Source of the DNA: Neoarius graeffei
Taxonomy: Eukaryota > Chordata > Actinopteri > Siluriformes > Ariidae
Reading direction: 5' to 3'
Length of the DNA stretch: 64,000 nt
Assembly: GCF_027579695.1 (NCBI RefSeq)
Contig: NC_083582.1
Span: 32,122,464-32,186,463 of the forward strand
Shown here: positions 4,583-64,000 of the stretch, piece by piece
Layout of the letters: each line of letters starts with the position of its first letter
Position numbering within the stretch: position 1 is the stretch's first letter
Notes under the pieces: generated by a model
Databases searched by the model: none
Seen by the model: the letters and a program-made list of their open reading frames with translations, nothing else
Told to the model about the DNA's origin: nothing
Translations under genes and position numbers: made by a program

Positions 4583-4827
4583 GATAAATGCCCCTTTTCC
4601 ACCAAAGCAGTTCCAGGGCTGGTTTGGGGCCAGTGCTTAGTTTGGAACCGGGTTTCCTGTTTCCACTGACAAAGAACTGGGTCTGGGGCCAGAAAAACCG
4701 GTTCCATGCTAGCACCAACTCTGCTGGGCCAGAGGAAAGAACCGCTTACGTCAGCGGGGGGCGGAGTTAAGACCAACGTTGTTGTTTCGATGTTCGCGCT
4801 AATGTTTATGCAAACGCAGCGACTGTG

Positions 4828-5474
4828 GGTGGTAAAAGAGAGCAACTGGACTTGCTTGAAGATTCTTGAAGACGTTTCACCTCTCATCCGAAAGGCTTCT
4901 TCAGTTCTGTCTCACTGGTAGGGAGTATCAGGTATTTATCCTCTCATGGATGAAAAGCTCATCTAAGGTGTGGTTGAGTCATCCTGTTGGTGTGGGTCAC
5001 TGGGGGCTGGGTGTGAACGGCCTCGAGAGTCGTTAGGGTGATCAATGGATTGCCCATTAAGGTGATCAATGGAATGCTGATTCTCTCTGTCCTCCTGTAT
5101 GCCACTGAAAACAACTGAGTTTTGGTGTGCATTCAGGCCCTGTCCACACGGCAACGGATTCAGGTGAATCTGATAAAATTGTTTATCGTTTCGGCCTGGC
5201 GTCCACACGGCACCGGCGTTTTGGGTGCCCCAAAACGCAATCTTTTGAGAACGGGTTCCAGAGTGGAAAGATCTGGCAACGTTGCCGTTGCGAAGTTGTC
5301 TGGATGAGTAGAACGGATTTGTTTACGATGACATCACAACCACATGACTGTCAGTGCTTCACGCCGGGTAGAAGTGTAACGAACTCGATGCGAGTTGTCA
5401 ACAAATCCTATAACTTGGTTCATGAAACATGCTTACAAAATATTTTCACTGTGAATATTTGTGTAATGGTGCAA

Positions 5475-5510
<36 letters not shown>

Positions 5511-7481
5511 TGGCCCTTAGGGCAGAGTCAATCCCGCCAGCAAAAATAGGGAAAAAAAGGAGCGATCTCACCTCTTCAGATGTTGGTTTAAGTCCTACAA
5601 TACATTCCTCAAAAAGGGCATAGAAGAACAAATTAATCCATCAACGTGTAGCATTCAATTTATTCCGGACCATTAAAGACGCCGCCTTCCGCGTCATCCT
5701 CGCCGCCATATTGGATAGGTCAAAGCGGAGAATAAAGATTCATGTGCTGCGTTTAACTGTACCAACAGGTTTACCGTCCAAACGAGATCACATGGGATTA
5801 CCTTTCACAGGTGAGACTGGAAAAATACTTTTCATTGTATTTGGTCATTATAACGTAATTTTACGAACAGATTTTCCTGACTTTGTGGCTAATATGAAGT
5901 CTCGCGCATAATAGTTTATGCGCATGCGTCCTTACTTCTGTTGTTCTGGTGTCTCCGAAGGGACCGTCTTACAGCGCCCCTAGAGGTGTGACGTGTATTG
6001 CATCGTTTTCAGCAAGCGTTGCGTTGCCATATGGACCTGATATTTTACTGATCGTTGCCCATTTGGACGCGATATTTTTTTAAATAACATCTCGTTGCCG
6101 TTGTCGTGTGGATGTAGCCTAAAGGCCTCTGCATGCTCTTGCGACAAGGCTTTCGCAGATAGCTTTTCGCAGACAGTTGTAATTTATTGTTGAGCGGGGA
6201 GTATAGGCGTGTGCGATGTTATTCACCGGCACAACGCAAGGGGGTGCGAAGTAGCTAGGAGTAGTTGGTGGGTGTGGTTAGTGGCGTGTTTATGGTTAGT
6301 GGAGTGTTTATCCTCCGGTTACTTATAATGACTAGAACTTTTTTTTACAATGACTAGAACTGGAGTCGTATAGATGTACGTACTTCCTCAATCAACCGCT
6401 CTTCGTGCTGCTCCATCTTCGCTCGTGTTTTTAAAAATGCCGGTCGTGAAAACAAAACAAACCGGGAGAGTAGGGAAGCGGAAGTGCGTGTACAGCGGAT
6501 GTAGAGTGGACCAATCAGAGCCCTCTTGTCTGCGAGGCTTCTGCGGTGGTCACAATTTTTGGGAGGTGCGCGCAGAGCGTCTGCGAAGGTGGGGGGGGGC
6601 TACGCAGACGCTATCTGCGACACCGTCTGCGAGGACTGGGTTGTCAGCATAAATTGGCCTTAAGGCTACATCCACACGACAACGGCAACGAGATGTTATT
6701 TAAAAAAATATCGCGTCCAAATGGGCAACAATCAGTAAAATATCAGGTCCATATGGCAACGCAACGCTTGCTGAAAACGATGCAATACACATGCCACACC
6801 TCTAGGGGCGCTGTAAGACGGTCCCTTCGGAGACACCAGAACAATAGAAGAAGTAAGGACGCATGCGCATAAACTATTATGCGCGAGACTTCATATTAGC
6901 CACAAAGTCAGGAAAATCTGTTTGTAAAATTACATTATAATGACCAAATACAATGAAAAGTATTTTTCCAGTCTCACCTGTGAAGGGTAATCCCATGTGA
7001 TCTCGTTTGGACGGCAAACCTGTTGGTACAGTTAAACGCAGCTAATCTTTATTCTCCGCTTTGACCTATCCAATATGGCGGCGAGGATGACGTATGATTC
7101 TACGCGGAAGGCGGCGTCTTTAATGGTCCGGAATAAATTGAATGCTACACGTTGATGGATTAATTTCTTGTTTCTCACCTGTGAAAGGTAATCCCATGTG
7201 ATCTCGTTTGGACGGTAAACCTGTTGGTACAGTTAAACGCAGCACATGAATCTTTATTCTCCGCTTTGACCTATCCAATATGGCGGCGAGGATGACGCGG
7301 AAGGCGGCGTCTTTAATGGTCCAGAATAAATTGAATGCTACACGTTGATGGATTAATTTGCTCTTCTACGCCCTTTTTGAGGAATGTATTGTAGGACTTA
7401 AACCAACATCTGAAGAGGTGAGATCGCTCCTTTTTTTCCCTATTTTTGCTGGCGGGATTGACTCTGCCCTAAGGGCTATTT

Positions 7482-7518
<37 letters not shown>

Positions 7519-8171
7519 CTTTGCACCATTACACAATAAATATTCACAGTGAAAATAATTTGTAAGCGAGTTTCATGAACCAAGTTATAGGATTTGTTGA
7601 CAACTCGCATCGAGTTCGTTACACTTCTACCCGGCGTGAAGCACTCACAGTCATGTGGTTGTGACGTCATCGTAAACAAATCCGTTCTACTCATCCAGAC
7701 GACTTCACAACGGCAACATTGCCAGATCTTTCCACTCTGGAACCCGTTCTCAAAAAGATTGCGTTTTGGGGCACCCAAAACGCCGGTGCCGTGTGGACGC
7801 CAGGCCTAAACGATAAGCAATTGTATCGGAGTCACCTGAATCCGTTGCCGTGTGGACAGGGCCTGAATGCACACCAAAATCCAGTTGTTTTCAGTGGCAT
7901 ACAGGAGGACAGAGAGAATCAGCATTCCATTGATCACCTTAATGGGCAATCCATTGATCACCCTAACGACTCTCGAGGCCGTTCACACCCAGCCCCCAGT
8001 GACCCACACCAACAGGATGACTCAACGACACCTTAGATGAGCTTTTCATCCATGAGAGGATAAATACCTGATGGTCCCTACCAGTCAGACAGAACTGAAG
8101 AAGCCTTTCGGATGAGAGGTGAAACGTCTTCAAGAATCTTCACGCAAGTCCAGTTGCTCTCTTTTACCACC
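4828..8171. repeat. Large palindrome (inverted duplication), arms about 1.3-1.5 kb
   Basis: The left arm (about 4828-6122) and right arm (about 6661-8171) are reverse complements. Paired landmarks: CCGAAAGGCTTCTTCAG (left) with its complement near 8098-8114; a (GA)n tract at about 5478-5507 with (CT)n at about 7488-7514; and the end GTGTGGATGTAGCC before 6120 with GGCTACATCCACAC after 6662. Without the central insert the middle would read GTAGCCTTAAGGCTAC. The right arm has an additional ~190-bp direct duplication (6974-7165 repeated at 7174-7360). Each arm contains an element with related ends AGGCCCTGTCCACACGGCAA and AGGCTACATCCACACGACAA. Confidence 0.85.
6123..6660 (+). mobile_element. PIF/Harbinger-type non-autonomous element (copy 1)
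   Basis: The ends AGGCCTCTGCATGC and GCATAAATTGGCCT are flanked by a 3-bp TAA duplication (6120-6122, 6661-6663). A second copy at 38856-39265 has the same ends and a TGA duplication. T-N-A duplications are the signature of the PIF/Harbinger superfamily. No transposase is encoded. It sits at the centre of the palindrome. Confidence 0.78.
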
Positions 8172-8289
8172 CACAATTACCATGACCTGGATGACTGAGA
8201 ATCTTCACAGACAAACGCAGCGACGTAATAACGTGGCTCCCCTTAGCACCCCGAGCTATGGAAAAGCAAACTGGTTCTCAGCTGGCTCA

Positions 8290-17053: not shown

Positions 17054-17424
17054 GGCGGCACGGTGGTGTAGTGGTTAGCGCTGTCGCCTCACAGCAAGAA
17101 GGTCCTGGGCTCGAGCCCCGGGGCCGGCGAGGGCCTTTCTGTGTGGAGTTTGCATGTTCTCCCCGTGTCCGCGTGGGTTTCCTCCGGGTGCTCCGCTTTC
17201 CCCCACAGTCCAAAGACATGCAGGTTAGGTTAACTGGTGACTCTAAATTGACCGTAGGTGTGAATGTGAGTGTGAATGGTTGTCTGTGTCTATGTGTCAG
17301 CCCTGTGATGACCTGGTGACTTGTCCAGGGTGTACCCCGCCTTTCGCCCGTAGTCAGCTGGGATAGGCTCCAGCTTGCCTGCGACCCTGTAGAAGGATAA
17401 AGCGGCTACAGATAATGAGATGAG
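17054..17424 (+). mobile_element. tRNA-derived SINE (family 1), full length
   Basis: The cleanest copy in the window: GGTGGTGTAGTGGTTAGCGC (A box), GGGCTCGAGCCCC (B box region), CAAAGACATGCAGGTTAGG, then GGCTCCAGCTTGCCTGCGAC near the 3' end and a GATAATGAGATGA tail. Target duplication ATCTCTTACTTGC at 17041-17053 and 17425-17437. Confidence 0.94.
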
Positions 17425-17437
17425 ATCTCTTACTTGC

Positions 17438-23832: not shown

Positions 23833-26800
23833 TCACACTCTCTCACACTAACTCACTCTCACTCACACTAACTCACTCACACTAACTCACTCACACTAAC
23901 TCACTCACTCTCACTCACACTCACTCACTCACTCACACTCTCATTCTCACTCACTCACACTAACTCACTCACACACACACTCTCTCTCTCACTCACACTA
24001 ACTCACTCACACTCTCATACTCACTCACACTCTCATTCTCACTCACACTAACTCACTCACTCTCATTCTCACTCACACTAACTCACTCACACTCTCATTC
24101 TCACTCACACTAACTCACTCACACTCATTCTCACACTAACTCACACACTCTCACTCACACTCTCATTCTCACTCACACTCTCATTCTCACACTAACTCAC
24201 ACACTCTCTCTCACACTCTCATTCTCACTCACTCTCTCTCTCTCACTCATTCTCACTCACACTCACTCACTCACACTCTCATACTCACTCACTCACACTA
24301 ACTCACTCACACTCTCTCACTCATTCTCACTCACACTAACTCACTCACACACTCACTCTCTCTCTCACTCACACTAACTCACTCACACTCTCATTCTCAC
24401 TAACTCACTCACACACTCACTCTCTCACTCACACTAACTCACTCACACTCTCATTCTCACTCACACTAACTCACTCACACTCTCTTTCTCACTCACTCAC
24501 ACTAACTCACACACTCACTCTCTCACTCATTCTCACTCACACTAACTCACTCACACTCTCTCATTCTCACTCACTCACACACTCACTCTCTCACTCATTC
24601 TCACTCACACTAACTCACTCACACTCTCATTCTCACTCACTCACTCACACTAACTCACTCACACTCACTCTCACTCACTCACACTCTCATACTCACTCAC
24701 ACTAACTCACTCACACACACACTCTCTCTCTCACTCACACTAACTCACTCACACTCTCATACTCACTCACACTCTCATTCTCACTCACACTAACTCACTC
24801 ACACTCTCATTCTCACTCACACTAACTCACTCACACTCTCATTCTCACTCACACTAACTCACTCACACTCTCATTCTCACACTAACTCACACACTCTCAC
24901 TCACACTCTCATTCTCACTCACTCACACTCACTCACTCACACTCTCATTCTCACTCACTCACACTCACTCTCTCTCTCACTCATTCTCACTCACACTCAC
25001 TCACTCACTCACTCACTCACACTCTCATACTCACTCACTCACTCACACTAACTCACTCACACTCTCTCTCTCACTCATTCTCACTCACTCACACTAACTC
25101 ACTCACACACTCACTCTCTCACTCACACTAACTCACTCACACTCTCATTCTCACTCACTCACACTAACTCACTCACACTCTCATTCTCACTCACTCACAC
25201 TAACTCACTCTCACTCACACTAACTCACTCACACTCACTCTCACTCACTCACACTCTCATACTCACTCACACTAACTCACTCACACACACACTCTCTCTC
25301 TCACTCACACTAACTCACTCACACTCTCATACTCACTCACACTCTCATTCTCACTCACACTAACTCACTCACACTCTCATTCTCACTCACACTAACTCAC
25401 TCACACTCTCATTCTCACTCACACTAACTCACTCACACTCTCATTCTCACACTAACTCACACACTCTCACTCACACTCTCATTCTCACTCACTCACACTC
25501 ACTCACTCACACTCTCATTCTCACTCACTCACACTCACTCTCTCTCTCACTCATTCTCACTCACACTCACTCACTCACTCACTCACTCACTCACTCACAC
25601 TCTCATACTCACTCACTCACTCACACTAACTCACTCACACTCTCTCTCTCACTCATTCTCACTCACTCACACTAACTCACTCACACACTCACTCTCTCAC
25701 TCACACTAACTCACTCACACTCTCATTCTCACTCACTCACACTAACTCACTCACACTCTCATTCTCACTCACTCACACTAACTCACTCACACTCACTCTC
25801 TCTCACTCATTCTCACTCACACTCTCATTCTCTCACTCACACTAACTCACTCAGACACTCTCTCTCTCACTCACTCACTCACACTCTCATTCTCTCTCAC
25901 TCATTCTCACTCACACTAACTCACTCACACTCTCTCACTCACACTAACTCACTCACACACTCACTCTCTCACTCATTCTCACTCACACTAACTCACTCAC
26001 ACTCTCATTCTCACTCACTCACACTAACTCACTCACACACTCACTCTCTCTCACTCATTCTCACTCACTCACACTAACTCACTCACACACTCTCTCACTC
26101 ATTCTCACTCACTCACACTAACTCACACACACTCTCTCACACACTCTCATTCTCACTCACACTAACTCACTCACACTCTCATTCTCACTCACTCACACTA
26201 ACTCACTCTCACTCACTCACACTAACTCACTCTCACTCACACTAACTCACTCACACTCTCTCATTCTCACTAACTCACTCACACACTCACTCTCTCACTC
26301 ATTCTCACTCACACTAACTCACTCACACTCTCATTCTCACTAACTCACTCACACACTCACTCTCTCACTCATTCTCACTCACTAACTCACTCACACTCTC
26401 ATTCTCTCTCACTCATTCTCACTAACTCACTCACACACTCACTCTCTCACTCACTCTCACTCACACTAACTCACTCACACTCTCATTCTCACTAACTCAC
26501 TCACACACTCACTCTCTCACTCATTCTCACTCACACTAACTCACTCACACTCTCATTCTCTCTCACTCATTCTCACTCACACTCTCTCATTCTCACTCAC
26601 TCACACTAACTCACTCTCACTCACACTAACTCACTCACACTCTCTCATTCTCACTAACTCACTCACACACTCACTCTCTCACTCATTCTCACTCACACTA
26701 ACTCACTCACACTCTCATTCTCTCTCACTCATTCTCACTCACACTAACTCACTCACACTCTCTCATTCTCACTCACTCACTAACTCACTCACTCATTCTC

Positions 26801-29800
26801 ACTCACTCACACTCTCATTCTCACTCACTCACACTAACTCACTCACACTCACTCTCTCTCACTCATTCTCACTCACACTCTCATTCTCTCACTCCACACT
26901 AACTCACTCACACACTCTCTCTCTCACTCATTCTCACTCACACTCACTCACTCACACTCTCATTCTCTCTCACTCATTCTCACTCACTCACACTCTCATT
27001 CTCACTCACTAACTCACTCACACTCTCTCTCTCTCACTCATTCTCACTCACTCACACTCTCATTCTCACTCACACTAACTCACTCTCACACTCTCATTCT
27101 CACTCACTCACACTAACTCACTCACACTCTCATACTCACTCACACTCTCATTCTCACTCACACTAACTCACTCACACTCTCATTCTCACACTAACTCACA
27201 CACTCTCACTCACACTCTCATTCTCACTCACTCTCATACTCACTCACTCACACTAACTCACTCACTCACACACTCACTCTCTCTCTCACTCATTCTCACT
27301 CACACTCATTCTCACTCACTCACACTAACTCACTCTCACTCACACTAACTCACTCACACTCTCATTCTCACACACTCACTCACTCTCTCACTCATTCTCA
27401 CTCACACTAACTGACTCACACTCTCATTCTCACTCACACACTCACTCACACACACACTCACTCTCTCTCACTCATTCTCACTCACTCACACTAACTCACT
27501 CACACTCTCATTCTCTCTCACTCATTCTCACTCACACTAACTCACTCACACACTCACTCTCTCTCTCACTCACTCACTCACTCACACTAACTCACTCACA
27601 CACTCACTCTCTCTCTCACTCATTCTCACTCACACTCTCATTCTCACTCACTCACACTAACTCACTCTCACTCACACTAACTCACTCACACTCTCTCATT
27701 CTCACTAACTCACTCACACACTCACTCTCTCACTCATTCTCACTCACACTAACTCACTCACACTCTCTCATTCTCACTAACTCACTCACACTCTCATTCT
27801 CTCTCACTCATTCTCACTCACACTAACTCACTCACACTCTCTCATTCTCACTCACTCACACTAACTCACTCACACACTCTCTCACTCACTCACACTCTCA
27901 TTCTCACTCACTCACACTAACTCACTCACACACTCTCTCTCTCACTCATTCTCACTCACACTCACTCACTCACACTCTCACTCACACTAACTCACTCACA
28001 CTCTCTCTCACTCATTCTCACTCACACTAACTCACTCACACTCTCTCATTCTCACTCACTCACACTAACTCACTCACACACTCACTCTCTCTCACTCATT
28101 CTCACTCACTCACACTAACTCACTCACACTCTCATTCTCTCTCACTCATTCTCACTCACACTAACTCACTCACACACTCACTCTCTCTCTCACTCATTCT
28201 CACTCACACTAACTCACTCACACACTCACTCTCTCTCTCACTCATTCTCACTCACACTCACTCACTCACACTCTCTCTCTCACTCACACTAACTCACTCT
28301 CTCTCTCACTCATTCTCACTCACACTAACTCACTCACACTCTCTCATTCTCACTCACTCACACTAACTCACTCACACACTCACTCTCTCTCACTCATTCT
28401 CACTCACTCACACTAACTCACTCACACTCTCATTCTCTCTCACTCATTCTCACTCGCACTAACTCACTCACACTCTCTCATTCTCACTCACTCACACTAA
28501 CTCACTCACACACTCTCTCACTCATTCTCACTCACTCACACTAACTCACTCACACACTCTCTCTCACTCATTCTCACTCACACTCACTCACTCACACTCT
28601 CATTCTCACTCACACTAACTCACTCACACTCTCTCATTCTCACTCACTCTCTCTCACTCATTCTCACTCACTCACACTAACTCACTCACACACTCTCTCA
28701 CTCATTCTCACTCACTCACACTCTCATTCTCACTCACTCACACTAACTCACTCACACACACTCTCTCTCTCACTCACACTAACTCACTCACACTCTCATT
28801 CTCACTCACTCACACTAACTCACTCTCACTCACACTAACTCACTCACACTCTCATTCTCACTAACTCACTCACACACTCTCTCACTCACACTAACTCACT
28901 CACACTCTCTCATTCTCACTAACTCACTCACACTCTCATTCTCTCTCACTCATTCTCACTCACACTAACTCACTCACACTCTCATTCTCACTCACTCACA
29001 CTAACTCACTCACACACTCTCTCTCTCACTCACACTCACTCACTCACACTCTCTCTCTCACTCACACTAACTCACTCACACTCTCATTCTCACTAACTCA
29101 CTCACACACTCTCTCACTCACACTAACTCACTCACACTCTCTCATTCTCACTAACTCACTCACACTCTCATTCTCTCTCACTCATTCTCACTCACACTAA
29201 CTCACTCACACTCTCATTCTCACTCACTCACACTAACTCACTCACACACTCTCTCTCTCACTCACACTCACTCACTCACACTCTCTCTCTCACTCACACT
29301 ACTCACTCACACTCTCTCTCTCACTCATTCTCACTCACACTAACTCACTCACACTCTCTCATTCTCACTCACTCACACTAACTCACTCACACACTCACTC
29401 TCTCTCTCTCATTCTCACTCACTCACACTAACTCACTCACACTCTCATTCTCTCTCACTCATTCTCACTCGCACTAACTCACTCACACTCTCTCATTCTC
29501 ACTCACTCACAAGTAACTCACTCTCACACTCTCTCACTCATTCTCACTCACTCACACTCTCATTCTCACTCACTCACGAACTCACTCACACACTCTCGTC
29601 TCACTCATCTCACTCACACTCACTCACTCACACTCTCATTCTCACTCACACTAACTCACTCACACTCTCTCATTCTCACTCACTCTCTCTCACTCACTCA
29701 CACTAACTCACTCACACACTCTCTCACTCATTTCTCACTCACTCACACTCTCATTCTCACTCACACTAACTCACTCACACTCTCTCATTCTCACTCACTC

Positions 29801-30767
29801 TCTCTCACTCATTCTCACTCACTCACACTAACTCACTCACACACTCTCTCACTCATTCTCACTCACTCACACTCTCATTCTCACTCACTCACACTAACTC
29901 ACTCTCACTCACACTAACTCACTCACACTCTCATTCTGCACTAACTCACTCACACACTCACTCTCTCACTCATTCTCACTCACTCACACTCATTCTCTCT
30001 CACTCATTCTCACTCACACTAACTCACTCACACTCTCTCATTCTCACTCACTCACACACTCACTCTCTCTCTCACTCATTCTCACTCACACTAACTCACT
30101 CACACTCTCATTCTCACTCACTCACACTAACTCACTCTCACTCACACTAACTCACTCACACTCTCTCATTCTCACTAACTCACTCACACACTCACTCTCT
30201 CACTCATTCTCACTCACACTAACTCACTCACACTCTCATTCTCTCTCACTCATTCTCACTCACACTAACTCACTCACACTCTCTCATTCTCACTCACTCA
30301 CTAACTCACTCACACACTCTCTCACTCATTCTCACTCACTCACACTCTCATTCTCACTCACTCACACTCACTCATTCTCACTCCCACTCTCATTCTCTCA
30401 CTCCCACTAACTCACTCACACTCTCTCTCACTCATTCTCACTCACTCACTCACTCACTCACTCACTCACTCACTCACTCACTCACTCACTCACTCACACT
30501 CTCTCATTCTCACTCACTCACACTAACTCACTCACACTCTCTCATTCTCACTCACTCACACTATCTCACTCACACTAACTCACTCACACTCTCATTCTCA
30601 CTCACTAACTCGCTCACACTAACTTGCTCACTCTCTCATTCTCACTCACTCACACTCTCATTCTCACTCACTCACACTAACACACTCACTCTCTCACTCA
30701 TTCTCACTCACACTAACTCACTCACACTCTCATTCTTGCTCACTCACCCACACTCACTCACGCACAC
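23833..30767. repeat. 6.9-kb CACT-derived simple-sequence array, + strand almost free of G
   Basis: Built from irregular mixtures of CACT, ACTCACACTAACTCACTCAC, CTCT and CTCATTCTCAC words. Only about ten G residues occur on the + strand (for example near 25853, 27412, 28454, 29468). Higher-order structure is visible: a block from about 24661 recurs at about 25231, an offset near 570 bp, and another recurs with an offset near 230 bp around 28.87-29.26 kb. Scattered substitutions and indels cluster in the last third. Confidence 0.95.
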
Positions 30768-31352
30768 AAAATACTTTTGTGATCGTGCAGTTTTGAAATT
30801 GTTAAAATAAACATGTTCACCTACATGTTCATCTTGTTGGGCTTGTGATTTTGACTTTCCAAAATGTATGAAAAGTCACCATATTAGGACTTTTTTTTGG
30901 CAAATAAGATGTATCGCAATGTTTGACCTCGGTATTTGAAAAATCCTGGTTACGGCCCTGCCCGCAAGCCATATTTTGAAAAGAAACACTCCCACCCCCC
31001 GCGTCTCCACCCCTCCTCCCCCTCATAAAGCCTGAGAAATTCTGCTTTATAATGGGCGTCTATTGCGTTACACACCAGTGGAGCTCGTTAAGTTAGAGTG
31101 TAGAGAGCTTGGAAAAATAGCTCAAACTTTCTCATTTAAACTGTGTTTTCAGCCCCAATTTTCACTCCACACACAATTTTCTCAAAAGTAGTAGCCACAC
31201 TTGTCCTGATTCACACAATGTGTCTACCTGAGCGATAGGATTTACAGTTTTTGCTCTGGGGTGGATATCAACCAAAATGAAGAAAAGCTGAGGGAATTCC
31301 CTGGGGAGGTAGAAAGGGCGCAGGGAGACAGAAGTTCTGTGTCAGTTAAATT

Positions 31353-31717
31353 CTCATCTCCTCTCATCTCTAGCCGCTTTATCCTGTTCTACAGGGTCGC
31401 AGGCAAGCTGGAGCCTATCCCAGCTGACTACGGGTGAAAGGCGGGGTACACCCTGGACAAGTCACCAGGTCATCACAGGGCTGACACATAGACAACCATT
31501 CACATTCACACCTACGCTCAATTTAGAGTCACCAGTTAACCTAACCTGCATGTCTTTGGACTGTGGGGGAAACCGGAGCACCCGGAGGAAACCCACGCGG
31601 ACACAGGGAGGACATGCAAACTCCGCACAGAAAGGCTCTCGCTGGCCACGGGGCTCGAACCCAGGACCTTCTTGCTGTGAGGCGACAGCGCTAACCACTA
31701 CACCACCGTGCCGCCCT
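31353..31717 (-). mobile_element. tRNA-derived SINE (family 1), minus orientation
   Basis: A complete reversed copy with GCGCTAACCACTACACCACC at its right end and GGTCGCAGGCAAGCTGGAGC at the left. Target duplication TGTCAGTTAAATT at 31340-31352 and 31718-31730. It lies about 170 bp upstream of the first coding exon of cep55. Confidence 0.93.
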
Positions 31718-31887: not shown

Positions 31888-34800
31888 ATGGCATCTAAGG
31901 GACCCAAGGAAACATTGGCAAGTAAACTAGGATTTAAAAGCGGTGGCTCCAAGGCCTTGGAAGCGGCGCTTGAGAAACTGAAAAAGGAAAATGCCCAGTT
32001 GAAGAAGACTTTGGATGAAATGTCAAAACGACAGGGAAGGCATCATCCTGCACCTCCTGATTCAGATAAATCCAAGCTGTTGGAGGTGAGTCTCTTTCCG
32101 TCTGTAGAAGACAGACAATGAACGATGCAGCCCTTACGAGTTGAGGAACGTCAACTTAACCAGCCATTCTTTTTCTAACACAACTGAATGTGTGTTTTTT
32201 GGCACCACAGAGAATTCTGTCACTGGAGACGCTGAGGGAGAGAAACACCCAGCAGCTGCTGGCTAAAGAACAGGAGCTCTCCATCATGAAGCAACAGCTG
32301 CGGGCTGAAGGTGGAGAGGTGGTGGCCTCGCTGCAGAACCAGCTGGATCAGAAAAGGCAGGAGGCAGAACAGAGAGAGAAACTCTTTCAAAACCTTTCAC
32401 AGGAGACCGAGGACCTGAAAAACAAATTGCTGGCTGTCACCGAGAAGTGCCAAACACTTGAAAAATGCAGTACTGACATGCAGGTCGGTGACTTTCTGTC
32501 TAACCCCATATCCTTCTGATCTAAAAAAGAAAAGGGGGGGGAGAGAGAAATCTAGTATAATTTCTTTCTGTGTTGCAGGAATATTTCATGCATCATATCA
32601 GATACGTTATTGAAGTAGCTTTAAATCTTTTCATAATCTTAAAGTTGTTCTGGGTACATACATGGTTAGAACCGATATGCAGGGTATTTATTTATTTTAA
32701 TATATGAGTATAAAGGAACTTATTTACATCATTTGGCATACACCCATCTCCAAAGTGACTTGCATCATCTCCATCAAATCCCCTGCTAGTACAAAAGCTA
32801 AAACTTTGAGAGGAGTTAGTACAGCAAGAATAACGGCCAAGTCACTATCCTTTTCATAAGGAAACGCCAAACAGTTTAGTACAATTCTCCTGAACAGGTA
32901 CGTACGTGCTACACGAGTGAGCAAAGACTTGTGTATTAGAGATGCGTTCGTAGTTAGAAGACATGATTATTAGTTAGTTGTGCGACTTCAGTGTTTTTGA
33001 TCCAGTATGGAAACTATTCCACTGTTTCAGTATAACTTCAGTTAAAGACTTTTTTTTTTTTTTTTTAATTAAGGTCAGAACTCCTGTTCACTTTATTCAT
33101 ACTAATCACATCATGTTCGTATGGAAAGGGCACAGGCTCGCTGATCCAGGATCCCAGGTTCGATCCTGCGCTCAGGTTGCTCTGTGTGGAGTTTCTCTCC
33201 ATGTGTCCACTTTTTGGTTTTCTTTGTATTCTCTGGTTTCCTCTCATCTCTGAAAACCAGCCCAGTAGATGGATTAGCTGTGCTAAGTGTGTGTGTGTGT
33301 TCGTTCCAGTCGTGCTTCCAGGGTTCTAGGAATAGGCTCAGGATCCACCTGGGCTCTGACCAGTAAACACTTACTGAAGATGGAGGGTTTAATTTATAGA
33401 GGATATTATACAGTTGCACAAAGATATGAAGTTTATCTTCGAGTGGTGAATGTATATTTCACGAGCGAGTGAAGTGAAAGCATGAAAATATTTTTCAACA
33501 TGAGGTAGGGCTGGGCGATATGAGAAATTATATCACGATATATTTTTTCAAAATTTTCGATAACGATATATATCACGATATAAATCAAATCACCATTTTT
33601 GTATTTTCTTTAATTTTCTGCTCAAAATATGAACATTACAAATTAGTAGTTCCTTCCTAATTAACAAAAATAGCTTAACAAGCCTTCAAGTTTCACAGAA
33701 CCAAAACAAACTGGATGCACATTCTTTTGTTCTTTTTATTCAAATGAATAAACTGAAACTGAAAAATAAAAACTATATACCATTGTTAATCATTTGTGCA
33801 AATTCTAGCAGCTTTCAAATAAACAAAGACATATTGACATGTAAACCTTATGCTGCACGGAGAAAAAAAGTGCAATCCTGTACGTCAGTGTGTTTGTTTT
33901 GTGTAACACTTTGTTGTATGTCCGATTTTAAATATCCAAAATACCTCCACACAACCGAAGATCTCTGGCCCTTCTTTTCAACGATGTCCTCCAGGGCAGT
34001 GCTCTGACTTTCCTGTTCAGAACTCCGGTCAGTCGGCTTCTCGCTCATTTTTACGATCGCTTTGTTTCACGCTTTGTTGGAGAAATGCCGCGCTCCTGCA
34101 AACTTCACCACAGCCATGCTGTGCGTTGCTGCTACACGTGTTTGTGTGTGTGCACGCAACCTAACATGACGTGGCTCTCTTCCCAACTGATTGGTTACGT
34201 ACGGTACTGTTTAGTTATGATTGGCTATTCACGTGTCTGTCAAAACTTCGGATGAAGTAGTTTTATTGAAGGCGTAGGCTTATCGTAGGCATATCGTACG
34301 TGTCTAATTTCTAATCGTAGGAGATTTTATATCGTGAATAACCTCGTAATCGTAAAATTGCCCAGCCCTAACATGAGGAAATAAACTTTGATCTTCGTGC
34401 CACTGTGTAATGTTCTTTATATTATATGGACACAGCCACAAAAAATATACACAAATTAATCAAAAGAATTTTAATTTTGGATCGGTTCACCATTTTGACA
34501 ATGCACGTCTTGTCCGTGAGAACACTGGGAGGGATGTTATCGGAGTGAGATGTTATACATACAGGACACTTTTTTTGTTTTTTTGGATGGAATAAAAATG
34601 TGTTCTATTCCCTTCTAGTGGGTTTCATTCATTTGGTTTGATGGCATGCAATATTGTTAGCGTATCGCTTATCCTATGTGTATTACGTCACTCTACGTAA
34701 TGGAGAATGAGCGTTGAGCATGGTTGTCAAGACAACATGACGTCATATGTCGGAGACGTAAAACTTTTGCACTAGCGAGCGACTGTGACAATTGGTGGAC

Positions 34801-40800: not shown

Positions 40801-43800
40801 GCTTCACTCCACTAGATGGTAGTATTTTCCCAGAAACGCTCACACTTGTCCATGCAACACACACCCCTGCCTGGCCTTTGTCTGTTGTTTGTCAAGCAAA
40901 GTTTCTAAAATTCAGTAGTAATATCCATCCATCCATCCTCTATTTAACAGTTATTCCACGAAATCGAGTCATACATGAGCTGATGAGGCGCGTAGCACTG
41001 AGTAAGCTATAAGCCATGTACGACAAGATTGAGTGGAATAACTGTTTCATTTTATGCACATTCACTGGATTTTGAGAAACGGAGCATTTTTATTTTTTGC
41101 AAATTTGATAAATAAAAACTTTATACGAAACGTCCGACAAAACAATTTTAAACAAACCTAGCCTGGCAAGCCAGTCTAAATGTGAATATTTATTCTGGCC
41201 TCGATCCGTAGACATTTCCGAAGCGTTAGGAGGAACAAACCGCTGTCTTTCAAATGGTCTCTGTGCGTATAGGCCAACGCTCTGACCAATCAGCGCAACA
41301 GTGACTGTGACGTAGTCAGAGCGACAGAAAGCAGTGGGGGAGGCCTTGAAATAAATAATTTTTCAAAATGCGTATTAATTAATAAACAGGTTCTAGATAT
41401 TAAGAAGTTTGGAGATAATGACCACAAGTTTGGAGTCTGTACCACATGCACATTTTTTTTTCCAAGTGTTTTTCAAGGGTTTGCTTAAACTGTTTTTGAG
41501 AGTTTTTATTTAGTGGTGTTTGGTGAAATAATTTCCCTTAAATTTAAAATAACGGGAAAATAAGAAACAATCAAAAAGTAATGTTTCAAAGCTGTTTATT
41601 AATTCTTCGTACTGCACAAACTAGCCCCATCCTTTCGGCTACGAGCGGAGCCAGCTGGTAGATCAGACTTTTGCCATAGCTGGTCGGCAAAACAGCGAAA
41701 ACGTCCTTCTTGAAAAGGAATGAGCGGAGAGCCTCTTCCTGCTCATGTTTCAACGAAAACTCCAAGTCTAATTCTTCTAAAACTGATTCCAAAGCGGAGT
41801 CAAACGCGCGCTGTTCACTAGCCCGTAGCCATCTTTCCTGCTGTGCTTTCTCCAGCGTCGCGCAGCTTTGTCGTCACTCCTGCAAAAGCCCGCCCAAAGA
41901 ATCCAAACAAAAACCTTGCGTTGTGATTGGCGGGCACGATTTGATGCCCGGGGTGTTTTTGTTTATATGGTGTGAGGCTAGACCCATTCGCTAGGCAAAA
42001 ATATTTTTGGCCGCTAGGTGGGTGGGTCTAGTTTACTAGGCTAAAACAAACCAGCGAAATGACAGTAGCAGTTTGTGAAAAATGTGTTAATTCTTGAAAA
42101 ATACTTTTCATTCCACATTTTGTAGCTTTTTTTTTTGGTGGGGTTTGTTTTCAAGTAGTTTTTATTTCGTCCTCGGTTGGTTCAGCAACACACTCCGCCA
42201 TTTTGTTTTTCTCTACTCACTGTATATGAGCTGATAGCCTAGTAGTAAAGTAGCCAATCGGAGTACACGATTGCTCATATCCAGTGAATGTGGATCAAAT
42301 AACATCCGTTATCCGCTTATCCGTCAGGGTCGCAGGGGAGGCCGGAGTCAATCCCGAGAGGCGGGACACACCCCGAGCAGGTTGTCAATCAATTGCAGGA
42401 CTAACACAGAGACACACACCCATTCACACTCTCTCATTCATACCTGTGGGCAATTTAGAGTAGCCAGGTGACCTACATGTCTTTGGACTGTGGGATGAAA
42501 CCCATGCAGACACAAACTGAATTGAAACACGAGTGCTAACCACCATGCTGCCCACCCCCTCAGATATCCGCAGTACAAATCAACAGATGTTCTAATCTGA
42601 TTTTAATGGTTAGCACAGATGCTTGGTTGATCCCAGTGTCCAAGAAGGTTTTGACTTCAAATTCCAGGACTGTCCAACAGCCACAAAGCCCTTAACTCCT
42701 GTGTTCTATGCTTGCGTGAGTCACTTTGCAGAAGAGTGTTGGCCAAATGAATAAATAACAATCGGCAAAAATACGGAAGTAAATATATATATTTTTTTAC
42801 CTCGTAGTGCTAAAAAGAGAAGAAACTGAACAGATGCAAATAACTGCTCTTTCTGTTAATATGGTTTAACCTTTACTGGAAGCCAGCAGACCTCGTGTCG
42901 TAAGTTTATCTATTTCCCTCTGCAGGCTGGACCACTGTCTAGATAGATTAACCCTTTCATCACTGCATACCACCATTCTGGTCTTATTGTAGTAAAGAAA
43001 CCCTTTCTGGAAAAATTATGCAGTGATGAAAGGGTTAATTAGTATTGAATAATTGAGTGTCTTTTTGTGGTGGTTGAGACCATTTAAAAAGTTGCAAGTA
43101 CAGTACATTAAGACTGGGCATTAGATTTGCGTATTCAACATCATGGTATAAAAATGTTTTAATATGCAGTTGTAGGTTTGTGTATGAGTTGAAGAATCAC
43201 ATAATTGATGTATTTTAATAGGTTCCTTCAAGTGAGGTTGCCATGGTCCAGGAGCAACTGCGAGATGTGAGTGGAGACACCTCATGACCCTCAGATTTTC
43301 TTCTGTTGCTTTTCAGCATAGCTGAGCATCTTAAAGGAACAGTCCACCGTACTTCCATAATGAAATATGCTCTTATCTGAATTGAGACGAGCTGCTCCGT
43401 ACCTCTCCGAGCTTTGCGCGACCTCCCAGTCAGTCAGACGCAGTCAGACGCGCTGTCACTCCTGTTAGCAATGTAGCTAGGCTCAGCATGGCCAATGGTA
43501 TTTTTTGGGGCTGTAGTTAGATGCGACCAAACTCTTCCGCGTTTTTCCTGTTTACATAGGTTTATATGACCAGTGACATGAAACAAGTTCAGTTACAGAA
43601 ATTGAAACGTAGCGATTTTCTATGCTATGGAAAGTCCGCACTATAATGACAGGCGTACTAACACCTTCTGCGCGCTTCGGCAGCGCATTGATACGGAGCT
43701 CAGATATCAATGCGCTGCCGAAGGTGTTAGTACGCCTGTCATTATAGTGCGGACTTTCCATAGCATAGAAAATCGCTACGTTTCAATTTCTGTAACTGAA

Positions 43801-46800
43801 CTTGTTTCATGTCACTGGTCATATAAACCTATGTAAACAGGAAAAACGCGGAAGAGTTTGGTCGCATCTAACTACAGCCCCAAAAAATACCATTGGCCAT
43901 ACTGAGCCTAGCTACATTGCTAACAGGAGTGACAGCGCGTCTGACTGACTGGGAGGTCGCGCAAAGCTCGGAGAGGTACGGAGCAGCTCGTCTCAATTCA
44001 GATAAGAGCATATTTCATTATGGAAGTACGGTGGACTGTTCCTTTAAAGGCAAAAGCATTACATACTGATGTTTCCTTCCCCCCCCCCCCCCCCCCCCCC
44101 CCCCCCCTTTCTCCTTGTGTAAGGCTCTGGAAAAAAATCAGCACTGGCTTGTTTATGACCAGCAAAGAGAGGCCTATGTTCAGGGGATTCTGGCCAGAAC
44201 TGCAGAGCTGGAGCAGCAGTTAAACCAAGCCAAGCAAACACTCCAACAACAGCACAAAGAGGCCAATTCAGAAGGTAGGGCCTCACCAGATATCCAGATG
44301 TTTTTAAAGGTCCACTTCACATCTGCATTTTTTCTTCCCTAATGGCAAAGTTCTTCTATTATAAAAACGGTGACCTTGTTCTTCCCTGTACCTGCTTTAT
44401 CAGTTGGTCATTGATGGTTAGTAAATTTACTCTCGCTGACCTCTCAAGCCACCGTCCGTACATTTCCTGATTTTCTGTTGTCTTATCTACATGACTCTCA
44501 AAAAGCATTCAGCATGTTAACTTCAGATCAATTCAGCTGGTGCACAGTACAACAAACAGCTAAAGGACAGGGATATTTACCAAGAAAAGCAGGTTGCATA
44601 AGCTATAAACAAACATTTTGGCATGTAGCAACAGCAGTCTATCAGCCATAAGGCCCAACAATAACTAGATTTAATGGACTACACTGGACAGGACTTGTAT
44701 AATGTGTACACACACAGAGCATCCAGTGGTGCGACACCCATTTGTGAATCCTTTAGAATTTTCTATATTTCTGCATAAACATGACCTAAAACATCAGATT
44801 TTCACACAAGTCCTAAAAGTAGATAAAGAGAACCCAGTTAAACAAATGAGGCAAAAATATTATACTTGGTCATTTATTTATTGAGGAAAATGATCCAATA
44901 TTACATATCCGTGAGTAGCAAAAGTCTGTGAACCTCTAGGATTGGCAGTTAATTTGAAGGTGAAATTAGAGTCAGGTGTTTTCAATCAATGGGATGACAA
45001 TCAGGTGTGAGTGGGCACCCTGTTTTATTTAAAGAACAGGGATCTATCAAAGTCTGATCTTCACAACACGTTTGTGGAAGTGTATCATGGCACGAACAAA
45101 GGAGATTTCTAAGGACCTCAGAAAAAGCGTTGTTGATGCTCATCAGGCTGGAAAAGGTTACAAAACCTAAAGAGTCTGGACTCCACCAATCCATAGTCAG
45201 ACAGATTGTGTTCAAGTAGAGGAAATTAAGACCATTGTTACCCTCCCCAGGAGTGGTCGACCAACAAAGATCACTCCAAGAGCAAGGTGTGTAATAGTCA
45301 GCGAGGTCATAAAGGACCCCAGGGTAACTTCTAAGCAACTGAAGGCCTCTCTCACATTGGCTAATGTTCATGAGTCCACCATCAGGAGAACACTGAACAA
45401 CAATGGTGTGCATGGCAGGGTTGCAAGGAGAAAGCCACTGCTCTCCAAAAAGAACATTGCTGTTCGTCTGCAGTTTGCTAAAGATCATGTGGACAAGCCA
45501 GAAGGCTATTGGAAAAATGTCTTGTGGACAGATGAGACCAAAATAGAACTTTTTGGTTTAAATGAGAAGCGTTATGTTTGGAGAAAGGAAAACCCTGCAT
45601 TCCAGCATAAGAACATGGTAGTATCATGGTTTGGGCCTGTTTTGCTGCATCTGGGCCAGGACGGCTTGCCATCATTGATGGAACAATGAATTCTGAATTG
45701 TACCAGCGAATTCTAAAGGAACATGTCAGGACATCTGTCCATGAACTGAATCTCAAGAGAAGGTGGGTCATGCAGCAAGACAACGACCCTAAGCACACAA
45801 GTCGTTCTACCAAAGAATGGTTAAAGAAGAATAAAGTTAATGTTTTAGAATGGCCAAGTCAAAGTCCTGACCTTAATCCAATGGAAATGTTGTGGAAGGA
45901 CCTGAAGCGAGCAGTTCATGTGAGGAAACCCACCAACATCCCAGAGTTGAAGCTGTTCTGTACGGAGGAATGGGCTAAAATTCCTCCAAGCCGGTGTGCA
46001 GGACTGATCAACAGTTACCACAAACGTTTAGTTGCAGTTATTGCTGCACAAGGGGGTCACACCAGATACTGAAAGCAAAGGTTCACATACTTTTGCTACT
46101 CACATATATGTAATATTGAATCATTTTCCTCAATAAATAAATGACCAAGTATAATATTTTTGTCTCATTTGTTTAACTGGGTTCTCTTTATCTACTTTTA
46201 GGACTTGTGTGAAAATCTTATGATGTTTTAGGTCATATTTATGCAGAAATATAGAAGATTCTAAAAGGTTCACAAACTTTCAAGCACCACTGGGTATGTG
46301 TGGTAGATTTTGGACTTGAGCAGCCACAGTGGCAGGTGGGTAAAACAGTTATTTTCCACCCCTGATGTATGGGCAGGGTGTATGCTGCGTCTCGTTGGTC
46401 TACCTGCCTGTCCACCTTTCAGTCATTTAATTCGGACTGAATGAAATGATTGGAGGAGCTTTTTCCAGCCCGATGATTGATTGATTTTTGATGCAATTGA
46501 TTTATTCATTGCGATCAGGATGTAAAGCGAATTTCAAGAAATATAGCACGTTTCTCAAAAATAACATACCCTGCCTTTAAAGATTAATGGATGCTTCAGG
46601 TTTCTCTTAACTTCACGAAAGGTAATATCCAGAGGTCTGTGTTCCAAACTCCTGTGATCCAGGTCAGTCATCTGCCTCCATGCAGCAGGAGAAGCAGCTG
46701 CAGGAGAGCCAGAGGGAGATGGAGGAGGAACGCAAACGGGCGTGCCACCTACAGGCCGAGCTTGACGAGCTGAAGGCCAGGTATGAAGGGAAGAGCCGCG

Positions 46801-58798: not shown

Positions 58799-61700
58799 AT
58801 GGCAGACAAGGACAGTGTGGAAAAATACCTGGAGAATAACCCACAGTTTGCAAAAGAGTATTTCGATAAGAAGATGAGGCCTGAAGTCATCACTGCTGCT
58901 TTCACAGAGAAGCTTGAGATCAAAGATCCATCCTCCTACAAAGATGTCTCACAGATCCAGGAGGCTGAGATCATATTTGATCTGGTCTTGGAATTACAGA
59001 GCGAATCAGTCATGGAGAACAGCATGCACAAGGTTCTCCAGAGAATATGTATGCTGGTGAACGCAGATCGATGCAGCTACTTTATATCTCGAGCGAGGAA
59101 TGGAATCCCAGAGCTTGCCACGTGTCTTTTTGATGTTACTCCTACCTCCACATTTGAGAGCAATTTGGTCAACCCATTTTCTGAAATTGTGTTCCCCACT
59201 GACATCGGCATAGTTGGGCAAATAGCCACAAGCAAAAAGGGAGTTAACGTTCCTGATGTGAAGCAGGTGAGTGCATATCAAAAGTTTTAGAAAAATCATT
59301 GTAATGACCCTGTATTTTTTTAACTGCTATGTTTAATGTGTACAACGAATGTTTATTAATTGTAAACATACAGTAGTAATTGGCCAAACAAACAGACACA
59401 CCACTTTTAGTACAAAAATTTGAAGAAAAAAAAAATCCAAATTTTAGGTGAACACTTTTAAAATCAGGAGCTGTTTTTACTGTTTAAGGCCCTGCTTTAC
59501 AGAAGTATTCAAATAAAACCAAACCCTTACACATACATGGATTAGTCACTCTTGTTTTTCAGTCATCGCAAGTGATAGTAAGTATCCTGTAAAGCAAATT
59601 ACTTTTCTCTCTTGAACTATTCCATGTATACAAAATTAAGATTTTGAGTTTCAGAATAAAATTAATTCGAGGATACTAGCTGTCCTTGCAAACAGCGTCA
59701 TAATGGTATGGTGGTTTTGTTCATGTTTATTAGAGGAGAGTGTCTAAAATATGAGGAGATAAATTGTTTTCGAGAAAAGTGATTTGCTACAAAATATAGC
59801 ACGCCCACTTTTACACCATTACATAATATTGGAACATTTTTAAACTATTTTTAACTTTAAATAGCCAAAGCCAATTAGATTAGACACCGTTTGAGGTACA
59901 GCCAACAAGCGGACATATATAGCCACTAGATCTTAACAGGCATAAGTAGAAATCGGTATTCAGTCTGCAATCTTGTTCAGTCATAGTTGTGTGAATGTGA
60001 TGTTGGATACATAAATAAGGCATATAAAAATTGTCACGTTTTTCCCTTCATAATTTGTTCGGTCTACAATTTTGATTGTGGTCTTCATTAGGCATCTCGT
60101 TGTTTATAGACAACATTCACGTGTACTCACAGGCTTGGTTCATTTCCATAATTACCACCAATCTATATTTTACCAACGTAGTTTGCAAACAACAACATAA
60201 TTTATTCAAATCAACATTTAAATAAAATAAATCAGTAATTATCATGAAGACGAAGAAGAAGATTCACTTTCTCTCATTATTCATTCCTCCATTCGAATAG
60301 CTGTTCATTTATTACAGCTCTTTTACTCAGACAAGACATAACTGAATTGTTATCCAGTGATCATGAAGCTATCTGTTAAGTTCAGTAAATGTTCATGTGA
60401 ATCTTTCTTCTCTTTTAACAAGAACCCCAAGTTCAGTGACTTTGTAGACAACCAGACAGGATACACCACCAAAAACATGATGGCTGCTCCCATTGTGAGT
60501 GGAAAGGATCTGCTGGGGGTCATCATGGCATTAAACAAAGTTGGAGCAACAGAATTCTCCAAAGCAGATGAAAATGTAAGTAGTTTGGACACTAACAGAC
60601 AAATTAGCAGACAATTGCACATTACAAAACATTTACATGACATTCATGTTTCTTCATTTGGCATATACTGTTATCCAAAATAACGCAGAATAATAATCCA
60701 TCTAGCTTTTAAAGGTCATTAAGTGCAAGAAACAGCCTGCAGGAAGAACTTTGGGACATGTAACTAAACACTAGAGTGCTACAGTCACATTACTGTCACA
60801 AAGCAGGTCAATCTGCAAATTAGAAGGCTAACTTGCAATAATGGTAATATACAGTGTAACAATGCAGCAGTATACACTGATCAGCCATTACAAAACCACT
60901 GACAGGTAAAGTGAATAATATTGATTATCTCATTACAGTGGCACCTGTTAAGGGGTGGGATACATTAGGCAGTAAGAGAACAGTCAGTTCTCAAAGTTGA
61001 TGTGTTCGAAGCAGGAAAAATGGGCGAGCGTAAGGATCTGAGTGACTTTGACAAGGGCTAAATTGTAATGGCGAGACGACTGGGTCTGAGCATCTCCAAA
61101 ATGGCACATCTTATGGGCTGTTCATGGTATGCAGTGGTTAGTACCTACCAAAAGTGGTCCAAGGAAGGTCAACCGGTGAACTGGCGACAGGGTCATGGGT
61201 GTCGAAGGCTCATTGATTCCCATGGGGCACGAAGGCTAGCCCATATGGTCCAATCCCATTGAAGAGCTCCTGTAGCACAAACTGGTGAAAACATTAATGC
61301 TGACTCCTTTCTGTTTTAGCCAGCATTAACTTTGTCAGCAGGAGCTCTTCTGTGGGATTGGACCATATGGGCTAGCCTTCATGCCCCATGCAAATCAACA
61401 AGCCTTCGACAGTCATGACCCTGTCTCTGGTTCACCAGTTGTCCTTCCTTGGACCACTTTTGGTAGGTACTAACCCCTGCATACCGGGAATACCCCACAA
61501 GATGTGCCATTTTGGAGATGCTCAGACCCAGTCATCTAGCCATCACAATTTAGCCCTTGTCAAAGTCACTCAGATCCTTACGCTCGCCCATTTTTCCTGT
61601 TTCCAACACATCAACTTTGAGAACTGACTGTTCTCTTGCTGCCTAATATATCACACCCCTTGACAGGTGCCATTGTAATGAGATAATCAATGTGATTCAT

Positions 61701-64000
61701 TTTACCTGTCAGTGGTTTTAATGTTAAGGCTGATCAGTGTATATTATGTGCAATTAAAAGATCAAATTGATGTGACAACATTTATATTAATAGTGGCGAT
61801 TCAGGTGAACTACAGCTTCCTTGTTCTAAAGTCATGTTCTTGTCATATACGTTTGACATGGGAAGTGACCTCATCACCACACAAAAGTTCTTTTATGAAT
61901 CCACCAAGAACTGGAAAGTTGCTGACTCAAATTCCAGACAGGCTGCCACAGAAATGAATTTAGTCCCATTACGCCTTTCTGTTTTTCCCCCTGACTTTGT
62001 AAAGTATCCTTGTGTTTGTGAAAGGCGCAATATAAATTAAACTTTTTATTCATAGTGCTGCAGTTGCACCATTTAGCAAAATGCATAAGTACCAAGTGTC
62101 TTCAGGAATGCTGCAATGTGTCCTCCAATAGTTTAGTAAAACTTTAACATGTTTAACATTTAACATTTGATTTTGCTTTGCTTGCCACCAACAAGCAATC
62201 TATTTTAAAAAAACATACATTTTACTCTCTTCAAAGCTCTTCAACAAGTACGTAAATTTTGCCTCAATCATCGCTCTTCAGCATTACACCAATTATATGT
62301 GGAACGTAGAATCCAGAAGAAGTCAGGTAACTCATCAATGGAAAAGAACATTCTGTAATGTTCTCATGATGTTTAAAACCAATGGCAAGGCCACATAGGT
62401 GTTGTTCGCTCACTTGTACTGCAGGTTCTTCTTTGGTCTGCCAGCAAAGTATTTGAAGAGTTGACGGACATTGAGAGACAGTTTCACAAAGTTTTGTACA
62501 CTGTGAGAACCTACCTCCAGTGTGAGAGGTACTCTGTAGGGTTACTGGACATGACCAAAGAGAAGGTACGTCATCCATAGTAGAAATACATCACTCACTC
62601 ATTATATGGACCTTTCTAGCATTATCCCATTCTACATGTATTCTTGCTACCCAATCATTGTGTTGTTCTGGTTTAGGAATTCTATGATGAGTGGCCGATT
62701 AAACTGGGAGACGTGGAACCGTACAAGGGCCCCAAGACACCTGATGGCAGGGTATGTGTCTTTTCACTACCATTTTATACTATTTAAAACTGTTAAATAT
62801 GAACTCAGGCAATCAGTATGGCTGATAAACTTCTTTGTATGCTTCACAGGAAATCAACTTCTACAAAATCATTGATTATCTTTTAGAAGCGAAGGAAGAA
62901 ATCAAAGTCATACCGTAAGCACTATTTGTATTTTTACCAGAACCATTGTGTTTATTGTACACTGCACATGTTCACCTACAATGTGTTGCATAGTAAGCTG
63001 AATTGTGCTTGCAATTTCATTTCTTCGCAGGGGACCGCCTGCAGATCACTGGGCCCTTGTTAGTGGACTCCCCACTTATGTAGCTGAAAATGGCTTTGTA
63101 AGTTCTTTTCCTATAAAATATTACCCTCATACACATCTTACAATCCCAATTCCAAAAAAGTTGGGACACTGCGTGAAACATAAATAAAAACAGAATGTGA
63201 AGATTTGCAAATCACAGAAACACTATATTTCATTGAAAATAGTACAAAGATAACATATCAAATGTTGAAACTGAGAAATGTTATTGTTTTTTGAAAAATA
63301 TATGCTCATTTTGAATTTGATATCAGCAACATGTTTCAAAAAAGTTGGGACAGGGGAAACAAAAGACTGAAAAAGTTGTTGCTAAAAAATTAATTAGGTT
63401 AATTGGCAGGTCAGTAACATGATTGGGTATAAGAAGAGCATCCCAGAGAGGCGGAGTCTCTCAGAAGTAAAGATGGGGAGGGGTTCACCGCTCTGTGAAA
63501 GACTGCGTGGGGAAACCGTGCAACAATTTAAGAATAACGTTCCTCAATGTACCGTAAAATTGCAAAGAATTTGGGGAATCACATCATCTATGGCAGTGTT
63601 TCTCAACCACTGGGCCGCAGCCCATTAATGGGCCACGAAGCGCCATCTAGTGGGCCGCAAATTTTTTTCAAGTGGAAGCTAATTTTTACTCGTAGTAGGG
63701 TGCAATTGCTGGGTTGCATCTGATGTCACATTAAGCTACAGTCACGTTACAGCTCGTGATGCTTTGCGATGGGTTATCGATGAAAATGAGGCATTTTGAT
63801 GGCGATATACATGTGAGCTAAAAGTTGTGGTCACACAGCAGGTGAACACTTGACTGTCGCGCCTTTGTGCGCTTGAGTCTGGTGCAGCTCGAGCTGCCGT
63901 GCGCGCTCAAGGAGCGCATTGTGTACGCACTTGGGACCCAGTCATTATGGGAAACACCTGATACTGATTGAGCGCAAATCAGCACACATAGATACAGAAG
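58799..64000 (+). CDS. pde6c: Cone cGMP phosphodiesterase alpha' (5' part)
   Basis: Coding exons in the window: 58799-59266, 60423-60575, 62237-62326, 62425-62565, 62677-62751, 62850-62914, 63031-63097. All have GT-AG borders and the frame is kept, giving about 346 residues; the rest lies beyond the window. The N-terminus is [24 protein letters not shown] spans about residues 75-225, with [20 protein letters not shown] and [20 protein letters not shown]. The start of GAF-B follows: [60 protein letters not shown]. The family hydrolyses cGMP in cone outer segments after transducin activation. The GAF domains bind cGMP and the inhibitory gamma subunit. The HDc catalytic domain and prenylated C-terminus are not included. 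No disruption is seen. Confidence 0.97.
59267..60422. other. pde6c intron 1, nothing recognised
   Basis: AT-rich intron without repeat ends or frames of note. Confidence 0.5.
60873..61741. mobile_element. Head-to-head foldback of a Tc1-like 5' half
   Basis: The left arm starts TACACTGATCAGCCATTACA, and the right arm ends with GGCTGATCAGTGTA. TA flanks it at 60871-60872 and 61742-61743. Both arms encode the transposase N-terminus ([20 protein letters not shown] and [20 protein letters not shown] on the left arm, the same region in reverse on the right). Arms meet near 61300-61325. The catalytic half is absent. It lies in pde6c intron 2. Confidence 0.9.
61744..62236. other. End of pde6c intron 2, nothing recognised
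   Basis: No element ends or frames of note. Confidence 0.4.
63141..63593 (+). mobile_element. Tc1-like fragment of the copy A/B family, in pde6c intron 7
   Basis: The left end CAATCCCAATTCCAAAAAAG follows TA at 63139-63140. A second AAAAAAGTTGGGACAGGGG is at 63337. The transposase start [20 protein letters not shown] (ATG at about 63473) runs to about 63590, where a hAT-like end interrupts it. Confidence 0.85.
63594..64000 (+). mobile_element. hAT-like element, left part (continues past window)
   Basis: CAGTGTTTCTCAACCACTGG with GGCCGCAGCCCATTAATGGG is a typical CAGTG hAT terminus. It begins inside the Tc1 fragment. The right end is outside the window. Confidence 0.65.

Follow-up and report, generated by a model that had tools for sequence, protein, structure and literature searches.

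Short inverted-repeat elements of teleosts, such as Angel, are non-coding, palindromic and hairpin-forming. In Xenopus, the T2 miniature inverted-repeat transposable elements (T2-MITEs) combine TTAA with AGGRR in the terminal inverted repeat, as given in PMC6004289. Kolobok elements, as set out in PMC9587614, have TTAA as their target and RR...YY ends, unlike piggyBac, and PMC4079207 calls Tetris of Drosophila virilis a foldback element. Here we describe a 709-bp palindrome in the third intron of cep55 of the fish Neoarius graeffei (genome size 2.34 Gb, 38 contigs), found in a 64,000-nucleotide stretch of contig C14 (positions 32122464-32186463), hereafter the window. This palindrome is very probably a recent, non-autonomous transposon of the Kolobok/T2-MITE type, sitting at a TTAA of what would otherwise be a 144-bp intron, expected to leave splicing normal and to have arms that are sometimes corrected.

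Structure of the palindrome in cep55 intron 3

The initial annotation had placed a near-perfect inverted repeat of 709 bp with TTAA flanks in an 857-bp intron 3 of cep55, next to a 45-bp exon 3. Our coordinates and arm alignment agree with this description, and the exon and intron numbering is right when coding exons are counted (Table 1). Counting both TTAA sites, the inverted repeat extends over 717 bp (43331-44047). Its arms differ by one substitution (C/T) in about 338-339 aligned columns and by two 10-bp indels, the right arm lacking both segments; arm alignments show one segment to be one of two exact tandem units, and the second to sit between CTTC repeats.

The RNA fold predicted for intron 3 reached -696 kcal/mol, compared with a mean of -231 for 20 shuffled sequences. 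Because the corresponding z is -65, a chance origin of the fold is out of the question. Unbroken runs of 179, 105, 41 and 17 bp make up the predicted duplex, and the hairpin of about 350 bp proposed earlier is correct for the whole stem, interrupted by two 10-base gaps and one mismatch.

Table 1. Features of cep55 and of its intronic palindrome, in window positions
Feature	Position	Strand	Basis
cep55 coding exon 1	31888-32085	+	open frame
cep55 coding exon 2	32211-32483	+	open frame
cep55 exon 3, 45 bp, in frame, first EABR residues	43222-43266	+	PF12180, human CEP55, open frame
cep55 intron 3, 857 bp; 144 bp minus insert	43267-44123	+	gene model
Left TTAA target site	43331-43334	.	alignment
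Left arm including TTAA, carries both 10-bp segments	43331-43693	+	arm alignment
Palindromic non-autonomous transposon (predicted), 709 bp, AGGAAC...GTTCCT	43335-44043	.	inverted-repeat alignment, genome relatives
Loop separating the arms, 11 nt	43694-43704	.	inverted-repeat detection
Right arm including TTAA, without both 10-bp segments	43705-44047	-	arm alignment
Right TTAA target site	44044-44047	.	alignment
Branch-point-like CTGAT, not within the element; its A is at 44069	44066-44070	+	motif match
Run of 29 C before the exon 4 acceptor	44079-44107	+	sequence
cep55 exon 4, encoding the main part of EABR	44124-44274	+	PF12180, human CEP55, open frame

A dispersed family with two forms

The view of the insert as a palindromic transposon with TTAA flanks is borne out by its many relatives in the genome, which place it in a family. 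When the greater part of the left arm was searched against the same genome, 23 matches came from 14 candidates, and 12 places were fetched. The common form of the family is about 980 bp long, with arms of about 360 bp and a spacer of about 266 bp, and has 1371 first-look candidates in the genome. In two of the complete copies, the arms are set apart by about 270 (L059) and 240 bases (L061); when the L059 spacer served as query, the best 40 of the 1371 candidates matched at 95-100%, one of them also having a further, shorter match at 94%. Complete copies of 951-996 bp were obtained at 38 of 41 spacer-bearing loci, L094, L103 and L109 being excluded for a missing or incomplete arm.

The spacer-less palindromic subfamily is smaller, with 87 first-look candidates for the centre of the window copy; among the best 40 of these, at least 10 other places are identical to that centre over 80 bp. 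Six complete palindromes (727-737 bp) came from a first set of loci and 36 (704-728 bp) from the 39 of a second set, after exclusion of the partial L120, L137 and L144; together with the window copy they give a final set of 43. L062-L065, partial or interrupted, entered neither final set. Most copies in the two sets come from the 40 top-scoring candidates (out of 1371 and out of 87, respectively), so that the sets lean towards query-like copies.

Since long palindromes are generally hard to assemble, we considered that the second arm might be a false inverted copy created by the assembly. We regard this as next to negligible, because 42 other complete palindromic copies occur at other places, with identical architecture and 2-15 arm differences each. 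Moreover, arm asymmetries are common to several copies, and the 25-base flanks differ in all 36 second-set palindromes (36/36). Two first-set palindromes, L054 and L055, have common flanks because a larger unit occurs twice.

Three sites in the arms distinguish most arms of the two forms. At site one, the form typical of palindromes was present in 73/86 palindrome arms versus 6/76 spacer-bearing arms, and the other form in 0/86 versus 56/76. The corresponding counts were 83/86 versus 20/76 and 0/86 versus 54/76 at site two, and 70/86 versus 14/76 and 3/86 versus 47/76 at site three; the remaining arms show neither form. Because these sites separate most arms of the two forms, the palindromes look mostly like a single lineage. 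We infer that the long form, which is the commoner one, probably gave rise to this lineage when the spacer was lost.

Some copies lie within other repeats. Two palindromes on C4 and C10 (L066:4553-6933 and L067:4520-6898) occupy the same site within a putative transposon that we take to be Tc1-like; the 2.39-kb unit enclosing them occurs twice, at 96.6%, and the palindrome seems to have hitch-hiked inside it. In L062 (C15) and L063 (C8), an arm piece plus spacer adjoins sequence that is common to both by eye, as if within a larger repeat. Phage and plasmid collections gave no match, and two internal words of the element gave 0 matches in IMG/VR. A 16-mer of the element end had 2 matches in IMG/VR and 43 in bacterial and archaeal genomes, which we took as chance occurrences of isolated 16-22-base words.

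Target site and transposon class

TTAA stands on both sides of 35/36 second-set palindromes, of all six from the first set (6/6) and of 35/38 complete spacer-bearing copies. We also joined the flanks of the copies (95 joined sites, from partly overlapping loci) and compared them with all fetched DNA. Junction-crossing matches were found for eight distinct elements, of which six were displayed (L107 and L154 were not), and two of these six are clean. The palindrome L148 has empty sites at L066:8826-9070 (89%) and in L147, each with a single TTAA; the spacer-bearing L102 has one at L120:1371-1501 (98.5%, covering 33 bases of left flank), also with a single TTAA. Taken together, the clean empty sites and the flank counts support insertion of the family at TTAA, with duplication of the TTAA.

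The ends of the window copy, AG...CT, agree with the RR...YY of Kolobok, and TTAAAGGAAC is present at both ends, in keeping with the TTAA and AGGRR of T2-MITEs; the TTAA duplication seen in this family is also a mark of Kolobok. Because TTAA and the AGGAAC ends agree with these published marks, a Kolobok/T2-MITE assignment is a good fit. A piggyBac-type MITE would use TTAA as well and duplicate it. We nevertheless consider that assignment highly improbable, as piggyBac ends are other than RR...YY and the AG...CT ends carry the very feature that separates Kolobok from piggyBac in PMC9587614.

Several points weigh against the Kolobok/T2-MITE reading or its target site. Superfamily membership is a fit of ends and target only. 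No Kolobok transposase or autonomous partner of the family has come to light, although no search aimed at a transposase family was made. Stop-free stretches in the element reach 76 codons at most. Finally, four of the six displayed empty sites are less clean: opposite L089, adjoining repeat units show TTAA with one additional A, L095 is matched by a changed site (TTAT or TTTT), L074 faces ATAA or an unclear match, and the comparison for L151 is not clean.

Age of the insertion

The window copy has the fewest arm differences of the 43 palindromes (1/339, against 2-15 in the others and a median of 1.7%). Its CpG observed/expected ratio, measured for this copy alone, is 1.00, compared with 0.55 in the window. 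In a near group of 20 copies, it also departs from the majority sequence at 4 positions, the lowest value, tied with L128, L136 and L139. Low arm difference, the CpG ratio and the few differences from the near-group majority together suggest that the insertion is recent. Arm difference need not date an insertion, because copies inherit the arm differences of their parents and arms may be corrected.

The inner 10-bp arm asymmetry is present in 36/43 complete palindromes and the outer one, in the same orientation, in 9/43 (window copy included in both counts). Since other copies carry them too, both asymmetries of the window copy look inherited rather than the result of local damage. That the low arm difference is a private change of the window copy was rejected: relatives have almost as few differences, and the presence of the inner asymmetry in most of them also speaks against it.

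Mirrored mutations in the palindromic subfamily

If arms mutate independently, a private mutation in one arm is hardly ever expected to have a mirrored counterpart in the other. Of the alleles seen exactly twice in the 43 palindromes, 7/22 were in both arms of one copy, mirrored. Random pairing of arms gave a mean of 0.32 such doubletons and a maximum of 2 in 300 trials (binomial 5e-9). The 38 spacer-bearing copies had 0/22 for a chance expectation of 0.12, and the two forms differ by Fisher's test (p = 0.009). In addition, the two arms of a palindrome differ by a median of 1.7%, less than arms of different copies do (medians 2.4-2.6%), whereas the differences in the spacer-bearing form are hardly distinct (mean 2.7% within, means 2.9-3.0% between). 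The mirrored excess in palindromes, with none in the spacer-bearing form, suggests that one arm is now and then copied onto the other where there is next to no sequence between the two. These mirrored-allele counts are small and come mostly from best-scoring copies, and subfamily history could contribute to them. A nine-copy count, 7 mirrored against 32 and partly of CpG type, is superseded by the 43-copy set.

The low arm difference could instead reflect youth alone, with the mirrored mutations arising from subfamily history or hot spots, which we find somewhat doubtful. A well-matched parent is possible, given that L136 and L139, which differ by 1.1% from the window copy, have 2 arm differences each. 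Mutational hot spots could apply to the two CpG sites among the seven mirrored ones (2/7), but the other 5/7 are not CpG. In a mixed set of 38 spacer-bearing copies and seven palindromes, only 2 doubletons were mirrored within a copy, compared with 24 that were split between copies, and with an expectation of just 0.12 the zero of the spacer-bearing form means no excess and nothing more. Against an explanation lacking arm-to-arm copying stand the 7 mirrored alleles where permutation gives 0.32, and the significant difference between the two forms.

A bolder extension of arm-to-arm copying is that near-perfect palindromes evolve in concert, repeated recopying of one arm from the other within a copy, through cruciform or hairpin repair, keeping the hairpin perfect after insertion and making the intron a self-maintaining source of long double-stranded RNA. 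We put this forward as distinctly tentative, and as rather unlikely in its full form.

Possible effects on cep55 RNA

cep55 lies on the + strand, and its coding exons 1-4 join into a single open frame; the exon mapping drew in part on a human query sequence. The joint product of exons 3 and 4 matches the CEP55 EABR domain (PF12180, E 6.5e-19), which by its Pfam description binds TSG101 and ALIX, and human CEP55 (3e1r, E 4.3e-14), the latter without a gap across the exon junction. Intron 3 has the borders GTGAGT...TAAG.

The insert, TTAA included, starts 64 nt into intron 3 and stops 76 nt short of its end. When the element and one TTAA are removed, the 144 bp that are left retain GTGAGT, CTGAT and the acceptor. 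CTGAT we take to be branch-point-like from the motif yTnAy, and this motif, the 5' splice site and the acceptor all lie outside the insert. Because the splice signals are outside the hairpin, ordinary splicing of cep55 is our best guess, and the insertion is probably neutral in effect.

It follows from the predicted fold that a hairpin in the pre-mRNA would shorten the distance between the splice sites of intron 3, the spacing outside the hairpin being 144 nt. As a long stem, it would be a good substrate for ADAR or Dicer. The hairpin might alter cep55 RNA processing, improving splicing by bringing the sites closer, causing exon 3 skipping or attracting ADAR editing. The transcribed intron would carry a stem of about 340 bp with perfect runs of 179 and 105 bp, and PMC526178 reports that Alu pairs within one molecule are edited. 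Exon 3 is in frame, and its skipping would keep the frame at a cost of 15 residues, including the first of the EABR domain. On the other hand, the intron without the insert is already short, so that little spacing is gained, and its signals are not part of the insert; we therefore consider altered processing unlikely and retain normal splicing as the expectation. The run of 29 C beside the acceptor may matter for splicing as much as the hairpin. This run is itself likely to vary in length. A literature search on intronic inverted-repeat transposons and looping found none.

Other repeats in the window

Intron 2 contains a small perfect inverted repeat with 23-nt arms (42947-43039), roughly 180 bp upstream of exon 3. 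It has TTAA near both ends, followed by CCCTTT, which we take to be piggyBac-like and which contrasts with the AGGAA ends of the main element. Just upstream of cep55, a 6.9-kb array of CACT / TCACACTCACTCAC-like units (23833-30767) is almost free of G on the + strand, with a GC skew of about -0.99 over most of its length. A second palindromic element, at 60873-61741, has two 381-nt arms (91%) and TACACTGATCAGCC ends adjoining TA, and lies downstream of a first exon at 58739 that we presume to be pde6c-like. Its appearance is that of a fold-back form derived from a Tc1-like transposon, the Tc1 label being our assumption. The third large fold-back structure of the window is a 3.35-kb inverted repeat at 4824-8175 with nested arms, the longer of which are 94-98% complementary. 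Lastly, a repeat ending in GGTGGTGTAGTGGTTAGCAC occurs at 2204-3573, 17054-17425 and 31348-31717, and also beside copies L056 and L058 of the family.

Comparison with known systems

In the scheme that we propose, a non-autonomous Kolobok/T2-MITE-type element with very long arms, from the palindromic subfamily, would have inserted at the TTAA of the 144-bp cep55 intron and duplicated it. The element codes for nothing and would be moved in trans by a transposase from another source. Once transcribed, it would form a long hairpin in the pre-mRNA and leave along with the intron, and in the DNA, near-perfect palindromes of the subfamily would sometimes repair one arm from the other.

As a single insertion, this case is ordinary, and arm-to-arm copying is its one mildly interesting twist. 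With their arms in common, the spacer-bearing and the spacer-less copies form natural paired data sets for gene conversion between arms, opening the question of such conversion in palindromes of a few hundred bp outside sex chromosomes. The locus also offers a clean natural experiment on what a long hairpin in an intron does to splicing and editing beside a short in-frame exon.

Judged by titles and the beginnings of abstracts, and with subscription journals mostly beyond coverage, no paper in the searched literature describes this family or its arm-to-arm copying; the searches covered palindromic Kolobok MITEs of fishes, inverted-repeat elements of fishes, TTAA combined with AGGRR, and homogenisation or conversion of arms in foldback or palindromic elements. 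A 13-letter piece of the element end was absent from open papers. Tetris can be likened to the family by its foldback label alone, the long inverted arms being what they have in common. Elements of the Angel type are alike in being fish elements that are non-coding, palindromic and hairpin-forming. The T2-MITE families of Xenopus are compared here by description only: they are alike in the TTAA target, the terminal AGGRR, the lack of autonomy and the many copies, and the present family differs in being a fish family with arms of about 360 bp and a spacer-less, near-fully palindromic subfamily. The element of cep55 intron 3 represents a family, or a subfamily, whose kind is already known.

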